Source of the DNA: Azospirillum cavernae
GTDB lineage: Bacteria > Pseudomonadota > Alphaproteobacteria > Azospirillales > Azospirillaceae
Reading direction: 5' to 3'
Length of the DNA: 64,000 nucleotides
Assembly (NCBI RefSeq): GCF_003590795.1
Contig: NZ_QYUL01000001.1
Location: 575,001 to 639,000 of the forward strand
Positions within the stretch are counted from its first letter, which is position 1. Every line of letters starts with the position of its first letter. This document shows, piece by piece, positions 36,800-40,176 of this stretch. The notes below the pieces were generated by a model. That model was not told the DNA's origin and did not search any database. It saw only the letters and a program-made list of their open reading frames with translations. A program made the position numbers and the translations under genes.

Positions 36800-37372
36800 A
36801 TGCGGCGTTTGGGGCTGCTGGCGGCGGTGGGGGTGATCGCGCTGTGCGAACCGGCGGCGGCGCACCCGCATGTCTTCGCGGAGGTGTCCTTCGGTTTGCA
36901 GTTCGCCGACAAGGGGCTGGAGGCGATTGACGTCACTTGGCGCTTTGACGAGATGTACTCGCAAGCCATGCTGCCCGATTATCTGAAGAAGGGCGAAAAG
37001 CAACTGTCGGCCAGCGGCGTTCAGGGGCTGTACAACGACGTGTTCCGCTTCCTTGGCGATTTTCACTATTACACCGACGTCGCCGTCGGCGGCGCGCCGC
37101 TGAAGGCCGTCAACGCGGGCGGCTTCACCGCGCGGGCGGAGCGCGGGGCGCTGGTCTTCCACTTCATGATTCCGTTGGACAAGCCGGTCGCCTCCGGCGT
37201 GGTGGAGTTGCTGGGCTTCGATCCCGATTACTTCATCGAATACACGCTGGCCGGGCCGCCGCAGGCGCATGGCAAGCCGTTTCGCCACCAGTGCAAAACC
37301 CAGCGATTCCAGCGCGAAACCGACATCACCGGCCCCATCGGCGTGGCCGGCCTGTCCTGCACCATCGGGTGA
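36800..37372 (+). CDS. DUF1007 family periplasmic protein
   Basis: A 190-residue exported protein with a signal peptide (LLAAVGVIALCEPAAA) and mature start HPHVFAEVSFGLQF, as usual for DUF1007; the HPH is a likely metal ligand. Other family marks are WRFDEMYSQAML and FDPDYFIEY. DUF1007 proteins are regularly encoded beside NicO-type transporters and are believed to pass metal ions to them. It begins right after the stop of the Tat protein gene, and the transporter follows 5 bases later. Confidence 0.88.
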   Translation: MRRLGLLAAVGVIALCEPAAAHPHVFAEVSFGLQFADKGLEAIDVTWRFDEMYSQAMLPDYLKKGEKQLSASGVQGLYNDVFRFLGDFHYYTDVAVGGAPLKAVNAGGFTARAERGALVFHFMIPLDKPVASGVVELLGFDPDYFIEYTLAGPPQAHGKPFRHQCKTQRFQRETDITGPIGVAGLSCTIG

Positions 37373-37377
37373 GGCCC

Positions 37378-38361
37378 ATGCGCCGTCTCAGTCTGCTTGC
37401 ATTCGGCTTGTGGTTGGCGCTGGCCGTTCCGGCGCTGGCGGCCAGCCCGCTGGCCGGTGGCCGCGCCGCCGCGCCCGACGAGGCCGCCGCCTCGCTGTCG
37501 CTGCTGCCCGAACCGTTGCGCGGCGCGGCGCAGAGCCTGAACCGCCTTCAAGCCGATCTCAGCCGCCGGATGACCGGGCAGCTTCAGGAGATGCGCGACG
37601 CGGACGGCGCCGATGGCGGCTCGCTGGTCGCCGGGGCGTGGCTGTGCTTGATCGCCTTTGTTTATGGCGTGCTGCACGCCGCCGGGCCGGGGCATGGCAA
37701 GCTGGTGGTGTCCTCTTACTTTTTGGCGAATCGCGCGGCGTGGCGGCGCGGCGTGCTGCTGTCGGTTGGGGCGGCGCTGACCCAGGCGTTGGCGGCGATC
37801 CTGCTGGTGGGCGTGCCGGTGCTGCTGTTGGGCATGACGCGGGCCAGCGCCCTGGGGCAGATCCGCTATCTGGAGCTTGCCAGCTATGGCGTGATGACGC
37901 TGATCGGGGTGGGGCTGTTGGTGCGCGCGGCGCGTGGGCAGGTCGGCTGCGGCCACGATCATGGCTTGAGCGAGCACGGTCATCATCAGGGGCACGACCA
38001 CGCTTGCGGCCACCATCATCATCACGCTCCTCCGGCGGCGGAGCGTCGGGGTTTCCGGCTGTTGGCCTTTGCGGTCGGCTGTCGGCCCTGTTCGGGGGCG
38101 GTGCTGGTGCTGCTGTTCGCGCTGGCCAACGACATGGTTCCGGCGGGCTTGCTGGCGGTTCTGGTGATGGCGGCGGGGGTGGCCTTGACCACGTCTGCGG
38201 CGGGATTCGTCGGCATCGGCGCCCGGCGCGGGGTGGAGCGGCTGCTGTCGGCCCGCCCGCGCGCCGCCCATGTGGCGGAACGCGGCATGGCGTTTGGCGG
38301 GGCGGGGGCGGTGACGCTGCTGGGCGGATTGCTGTTTTTGGCGGCGCTTGGCGGGCTTTGA
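37378..38361 (+). CDS. NicO-family nickel/cobalt transporter with His-rich loop
   Basis: A 327-residue inner-membrane protein of the NicO (high-affinity nickel transport) family. After a signal-like start there are six or so helices, the family motif HAAGPGHGKLVVSSYF, and a cytoplasmic or periplasmic histidine-rich loop beginning CGHDHGLSEHGHHQGHDHAC that must bind divalent metal. Depending on subgroup the family imports Ni/Co or exports it (RcnA-like). With DUF1007 upstream, import of Ni, Co or Zn is the more likely reading. Nickel would also feed the NiFe hydrogenase pathway hinted at by hypD. Confidence 0.88.
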   Translation: MRRLSLLAFGLWLALAVPALAASPLAGGRAAAPDEAAASLSLLPEPLRGAAQSLNRLQADLSRRMTGQLQEMRDADGADGGSLVAGAWLCLIAFVYGVLHAAGPGHGKLVVSSYFLANRAAWRRGVLLSVGAALTQALAAILLVGVPVLLLGMTRASALGQIRYLELASYGVMTLIGVGLLVRAARGQVGCGHDHGLSEHGHHQGHDHACGHHHHHAPPAAERRGFRLLAFAVGCRPCSGAVLVLLFALANDMVPAGLLAVLVMAAGVALTTSAAGFVGIGARRGVERLLSARPRAAHVAERGMAFGGAGAVTLLGGLLFLAALGGL

Positions 38362-38446
38362 CGCCGCGACCACGCCGCAATCGTTGCGGTTGAGGGTTTC
38401 CGGGTGATAGTTCCCGCAATTTCAATGTTTTGGCGAGAAGTACGGC

Positions 38447-38717
38447 ATGTCCGCTCGACAAGGCCAAGTGGCCAAGATCGCGATCTGGCGCATCAAGGTG
38501 CCGGACGAGGAACTGGAAGCTTTGGCGGGAACTGAGCAAATCTGAACCTTCGTGGCAACTGAACGAAGTGGACACGACGACGTGCCGCCGATGACCAGCG
38601 TGGCGCGCAAAAGTCTGCGCCGCGCAGGATGCGGTGAGGATGCGTTAAGCCGCGCAAGGTTTCTGTTCCAACGGCGGAACGGTCGAAGTTCTACGTCGTG
38701 ACGAGGTGGTCGAGTGA
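38447..38717 (+). pseudogene. gatC: gatC, frame-damaged aspartyl/glutamyl-tRNA amidotransferase subunit C
   Basis: Recognisable GatC pieces occur in changing frames: ATG 38447 gives QVAKIAIWRIKVPDEELEALAG and then breaks; VPPMTSVA follows in another frame near 38582; and the C-terminal region near 38675-38717 (GGTVE-like, then KVVE-like before TGA) in yet another. The base sequence stays close to what an intact gene would have, with single bases missing, for example around AACTGAGCAAATCTGA. GatC stabilises GatA in the enzyme that makes Gln-tRNA and Asn-tRNA. This is either a recent pseudogene or, more likely, a stretch of poor sequence. Confidence 0.75.
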
Positions 38718-40176
38718 TGAGGCGTTACGCATCTGACCATGGGCGGGGGCGCTGGACGGCTTGCCAAAAAGGACTTCACCGTGTGGAACTGACCGAGGCG
38801 CATGTGCGCGCGGTCGAGCAGGGCGGCCTTCAACATTTTCCATCACTGAAAACGCCGGACACCGGCCTGTCGATGCCAAAGCCAGGACGAGCGCCGGCAA
38901 GGGCGAGGCCGGGCGATGGACGCCTGCCCATGCGGGTGAGGATCTGTTCTGCACAAGGGCGTCGCCACCAGGCGGGACCACCTCCTCGAGCGGTGGTGCC
39001 GGGTATGAATCGACGGTGACGTCGAGCTCTGGCGGACGGAGCGGTTTGCTCGGCAAGGTCAATCTGGGACGAGTTCGCCATGGGATCGGCGACTCATCAC
39101 CGCCCACCAGGGCGAGACGGTCAAGCCCCTGGAGTCACGGCCAGCCCGGTCATGGATCGCAAGATCGTCGCGGGCGGGTCCCTCCGGCGGCTCGGCGGCG
39201 GCGGTGGCGCGCGGGTGGCGCTGGGCGCGACCGGCACCGACACCGGGGTTCGATCTCGTCAACCGGCGGGCTACACCGGCACGTCGGCGTCACAGCCGAC
39301 TACGGGGCGTGCTCGCGCTGGGGCATCGTCGCTACGCCTTCCCTCGCTGGATCAGGCCGGGCCGGATGGCTCGCACGGTGGAAGACGCGGCGATATGCTC
39401 GCGCTCCATGTGTCGGCTCGATCAAGGATCTCGACTGGTCGAACTGGCGGTTCCCGATTTTCGGCGCGCTGACCGGCGACATCCGTGGCCTGCGCGTCGG
39501 CATTCCCAAGGAATACCGGGTCGAAGGGCTGTCGGCGGAAATTGACGCGCTGTGGAGCCAGGGCGTCCAATGGCTGAAGGACGCGGGCGCCGTTCCGGTC
39601 GAGATCAGCCTGCCGCACACCAAATACGCGCTGGCCGCCTATTACATCATCGCCCCAGCGGAGGCGTCCTCCAACCTCGCGCGCTACGACGGCGTCCGCT
39701 TTGGCCTGCGGGTCGAGGGCGGCAGCCTGAACGAGCTGTACGAGAACACGCGCGGCGCCGGTTTCGGCAAGGAAGTGCAGCGCCGCATCCTGATCGGCAC
39801 CTATGTGCTGTCAGCCGGTTACTACGACGCCTATTACAACAAGGCCCGCCAGGTGCGCACCCGCATCAAGTGGGACTTTGACGAGGCGTTCAAGAGCTGC
39901 GACGTCATCCTGACCCCGACCGCGCCCAGCACGCCTTTCGCGATTGGCGAGAAGATGGACGATCCGGTGCAGATGTACCTGAACGACGTCTTCACCGTGC
40001 CGATCAACCTCGCCGGTCTGCCCGCCATGTCGGTTCCGGCGGGCTTGGGCGCCGACGGTCTGCCGCTGGGCCTGCAATTGATCGGTCGTCCGTTCGACGA
40101 GGAAACCCTGCTGCGGGTCGGTCAGGTGCTGGAAAAGGCCGCGAACGTCACGGCGACGCCGAATTTCATGGCGTGA
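38717..40176 (+). pseudogene. gatA: gatA, 5' half frame-damaged, 3' half intact
   Basis: From about 39420 to 40176 the frame is clean and encodes the GatA C-terminal half ([62 protein letters not shown]). Upstream, GatA segments are scattered over all three frames: [13 protein letters not shown] near 38782, EDLFCT near 38938, YESTVTS near 39004, LLGKVNL near 39047, [13 protein letters not shown] near 39210, MARTVEDAA near 39367. The catalytic Lys and the GGSSGGS loop are broken by indels. GatA releases ammonia from glutamine for tRNA amidation. No gatB is adjacent. Essential in most alphaproteobacteria, so a sequence artefact is suspected. Confidence 0.85.

Follow-up and report, generated by a model that had tools for sequence, protein, structure and literature searches.

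Within the 64,000-nucleotide window analysed here (C1:575001-639000), the gatC gene and the first half of gatA are interrupted by 85-89 short indels confined to a patch of 1074 nt. This 1.07 kb patch is not a biological feature; it is almost certainly a sequencing or assembly artefact, in which the consensus was taken from very few error-prone long reads, or from a single one, and never properly polished. The cause (low coverage, or a join that was left unpolished) and the sequencing technology are both inferred. This interpretation is based on the density of the indels, the sharp edges of the patch, a normal level of substitutions, strand-biased deletions, the single-copy status of the genes, the lack of detectable GlnRS and AsnRS and the occurrence of further damaged patches. 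Together with the codon bias retained in the patch, these lines of evidence support the original prediction, made from the sequence alone, that an error-rich patch best explains the locus.

An indel-dense patch across gatC and the 5' half of gatA

The features of the region are as follows:

37291..38361, + strand: NicO-type nickel/cobalt transporter gene, the intact upstream neighbour and clean left flank (open frame; Pfam PF03824, 2.6e-21)
38393..39466, no strand assigned: error-rich patch, ~85-89 short indels, mean spacing 12 nt (pairwise alignments to relatives)
38447..38717, + strand: gatC, frame broken many times, 95 aa in intact relatives (ungapped tblastn fragments in different frames, alignment)
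38715..39465, + strand: gatA 5' half, ~residues 1-257, frame broken many times (ungapped tblastn fragments in three frames, alignment)
39466..40176, + strand: gatA 3' half, clean, residues 258-493 and stop (93% identity in one frame; Pfam Amidase, 1.5e-57)

Ungapped tblastn recovered GatC and GatA peptides scattered over all three forward frames from 38454 to 39422, followed by GatA residues 258-493 in a single frame from 39466 to 40173 (93% identity), and with the alignments this confirmed the earlier description of frame-scattered peptides giving way to a clean gatA. The genes were intact in all 11 relatives examined, with a GatC of 95 aa and a GatA of 493 aa. Orthology of gatC and gatA was established through homology and the gene order shared with Azospirillum gatCA, the alignment being collinear across the whole region.

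Every pairwise alignment to the gatC-gatA regions of eight close Azospirillum placed 85-89 short indels within 38393..39466, of which ~62 were deletions and ~26 insertions, and hardly any exceeded 2 bases; the patch was also aligned to A. griseum (L063) and to a MAG (L040). Against the nearest Azospirillum gatCA compared (L120), 63 deletions, removing 73 bases, and 26 insertions, adding 30, were counted, the first indel at 38393 and the last at 39465, whilst no indels were found over the ~700 bases of gatA past 39470. Indel density differed strongly between the patch and clean gatA (Fisher test, p = 7e-21), and the relatives differed among themselves by only 0-4 indels over the matching 1.1 kb segment (28 pairs). 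Overall, ~8% of positions across 1.07 kb bear an indel, at a site in the interior of a 2.45 Mb contig. The edges are sharp and independent of gene borders, with the start in the 5' leader and the end inside gatA. The abrupt boundary originally noted thus held, and the damage first assigned to 38447-39430 does form a dense patch there, although its start lies ~55 bases further upstream, within the leader, and its end ~35 bases further downstream. Missing single bases were said to predominate, and deletions do outnumber insertions by ~2.4 to one, but insertions still make up ~30% of events. An RNA family search of the region returned no match.

Substitutions and selection within the patch

At alignment columns invariant in eight relatives, differences were found at 61 of 872 positions in the patch (7.0%) compared with 30 of 576 in clean gatA (5.2%) (p = 0.19). 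The excess in the patch is therefore ~18 substitutions against 85-89 indels, making indels far more numerous. Substitutions are not absent, as the original reading had implied, but occur at a normal between-species density. More than 3 nt from any indel, those at codon positions 1, 2 and 3 numbered 11, 10 and 44 in the patch and 11, 9 and 52 in the clean part, a similar third-position bias rather than the even spread over codon positions that marks relaxed selection. Because this bias is kept between the indels, the sequence underlying the patch still looks as though it were selected as protein.

These patterns bear on the first rival explanation, that gatCA has genuinely and recently decayed, with its function taken over by GlnRS and AsnRS or by a further copy. 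The stretch as written truly cannot encode GatC or GatA, as decay would require, but the indels lack matching substitutions, third-position bias persists between them and one edge falls sharply inside gatA. In Teredinibacter mutation accumulation, substitutions outnumber indels ~7 to 1 (1.14e-9 and 1.55e-10 per site per generation, respectively) (PMC5833318); by that ratio, decay producing ~88 indels should therefore have brought hundreds of extra substitutions, where ~18 were seen.

Requirement for GatCAB

Decay would also require a cell able to manage without these genes. Profile searches covered the 6.46 Mb genome, which consists of nine contigs, is scored 100% complete and has Azospirillum as its closest relatives. 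The gatC model had no match genome-wide, and the gatA model matched this locus and more distant amidases, none of which exceeded the family cut-off; the sole bona fide gatA in the genome is the broken copy described here. The possibility raised earlier, that this is a damaged second copy, is not supported by this search, which revealed no intact copy of either gene in the assembly. The gatB gene is intact and distant from gatCA (C1:1189563-1190978).

No GlnRS or AsnRS was detected above the family cut-off genome-wide, and GlnRS is missing from most alphaproteobacteria, which use gatCAB instead (PMC3927822). Since there is no other gatC or gatA over cut-off and neither synthetase, the cell appears to need GatCAB, the one route to Gln-tRNA (and probably Asn-tRNA) that is visible, in line with the usual essentiality of GatCAB in alphaproteobacteria pointed out at the outset. 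On established knowledge, true loss of GatCAB would be expected to be lethal. The function of a true pseudogene would be dispensable or supplied elsewhere, and neither is indicated here. The division of the assembly into nine contigs leaves a small chance of missing sequence; nevertheless, genuine decay of gatCA is very unlikely.

Strand bias and further damaged stretches

Deleted bases on the + strand were C in 44 cases and G in 12, although both are equally common in the region (p about 1e-5 against L120; 6e-4 to 1e-3 for the two comparisons with the weakest signal). Such a bias would be expected of a consensus built from a single read or a handful of reads, all from the same strand, which is the presumed mechanism. 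Taken alone, strand-biased indels could also stem from a strand-asymmetric mutational process. Counting against the artefact reading, the deletion-rich, substitution-poor profile fits no single raw read type that can be named with certainty.

A frame-switch scan of 2.83 Mb, in which C2, C3 and C5 were barely covered, ranked the gatCA patch first among 27,715 scan windows and a dense patch at C1:2054300-2055700 (L261) second. The second dense indel patch (L261:14330-15630; C1:2054330-2055630), at C1 ~2.0543-2.0557 Mb, affects two genes: one for an ABC substrate-binding protein, at its end, and one for a DppB-like permease. Peptides from the C-terminus of the former and from the latter are distributed among three frames; the permease gene that comes next is clean. 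At the start of contig C4 (L136:1-3600), frame breaks recur about every 60 bases for ~3.6 kb, sparser than in the gatCA patch, and hit genes for an NHLP-type bacteriocin export transporter and an AraC-type regulator; this looks like a low-quality contig start. A frame-shift HMM with a higher switch penalty missed the gatCA patch, where indels lie ~12 nt apart, and a lower penalty recovered it. A score-gain variant of the scan left this patch unlisted and favoured sparser ones such as the C4 start, and the scan is accordingly a screen rather than a complete census. Within the window, a methyltransferase with a MethyTransf_Reg domain on the - strand carries a single frame shift at ~41700, between its N-terminus (start 41811) and body (to 40262), which may be an isolated sequencing indel or a genuine frameshift.

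A real, localised bout of hypermutation or gene conversion, in which a mutant or mixed culture gained dozens of indels at once, would accommodate the sharp boundaries and strand-biased deletions. We know of no bacterial process, however, that would scatter ~85 indels of 1-2 bases over a kilobase while leaving few substitutions, and such an event would be lethal at gatCA. That patches of this sort also occur at the start of a contig and in unrelated genes points instead to the assembly, and we regard this explanation as extremely improbable.

Gene order around the patch

Relative to other Azospirillum, gene order breaks just past gatA, from ~40181 onward. In A. griseum, the DNA beyond gatA matches C1:902-905.6 kb of this genome, reversed, whilst the sequence immediately following gatA in the brasilense group corresponds to C1:1189.5-1191.0 kb, also reversed, where gatB lies. 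These matches suggest inversions at the site.

This break could be taken to favour, in place of base-level errors, the erroneous joining of unrelated contigs or a chimera carrying an insert from another organism. It lies ~700 bases beyond the end of the patch, however, and the patch, indels aside, has an identity much like that of the clean half. Because gene order matches that of A. griseum from upstream of the patch right up to where gatA ends, the patch is not a mis-join of unrelated sequence, and this explanation, for which we see next to no chance, was rejected. That the indels are real, leaving an Azospirillum without a readable GatCAB that reaches Gln-tRNA and Asn-tRNA by an unknown route or corrects the message at the RNA level, is the most improbable reading of all.

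Origin of the patch and comparison with known systems

Under the artefact reading, the patch may have arisen at a former contig end that was closed up, at a gap fill or at a coverage dip, where a consensus from few long reads, or one, would have been left unpolished. The living cell most likely carries ordinary, intact gatC and gatA here, whose products, with GatB from its distant gene, form the GatCAB amidotransferase supplying Gln-tRNA and probably Asn-tRNA. The importance of the patch is solely as a warning. Automatic annotation is likely to call gatC missing and gatA a pseudogene, and so to report a false loss of an essential pathway. Since the assembly has at least one further dense patch besides a contig with a damaged start, other apparent pseudogenes in it deserve distrust.

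The locus resembles known GatCAB amidotransferase genes (gatC and gatA; TIGR00135, TIGR00132) in gatC-gatA order, in peptide content and in a clean 3' half matching Azospirillum GatA, and differs from them in that, as written, neither the frame of gatC nor codons 1-257 of gatA can be read. It is also comparable to the gene-fragmenting indel errors of long-read bacterial assemblies (PMC12007338, PMC8011154), which are likewise indel-dominated and frame-destroying and create false pseudogenes. Low-quality starts and ends are frequent in long-read contigs (Circlator paper, PMC4699355), and the poor sequence at the C4 start looks to be of this kind. The usual residual long-read errors are sparse; the proportion of positions affected here suggests instead a stretch that escaped polishing, not errors left over after it.
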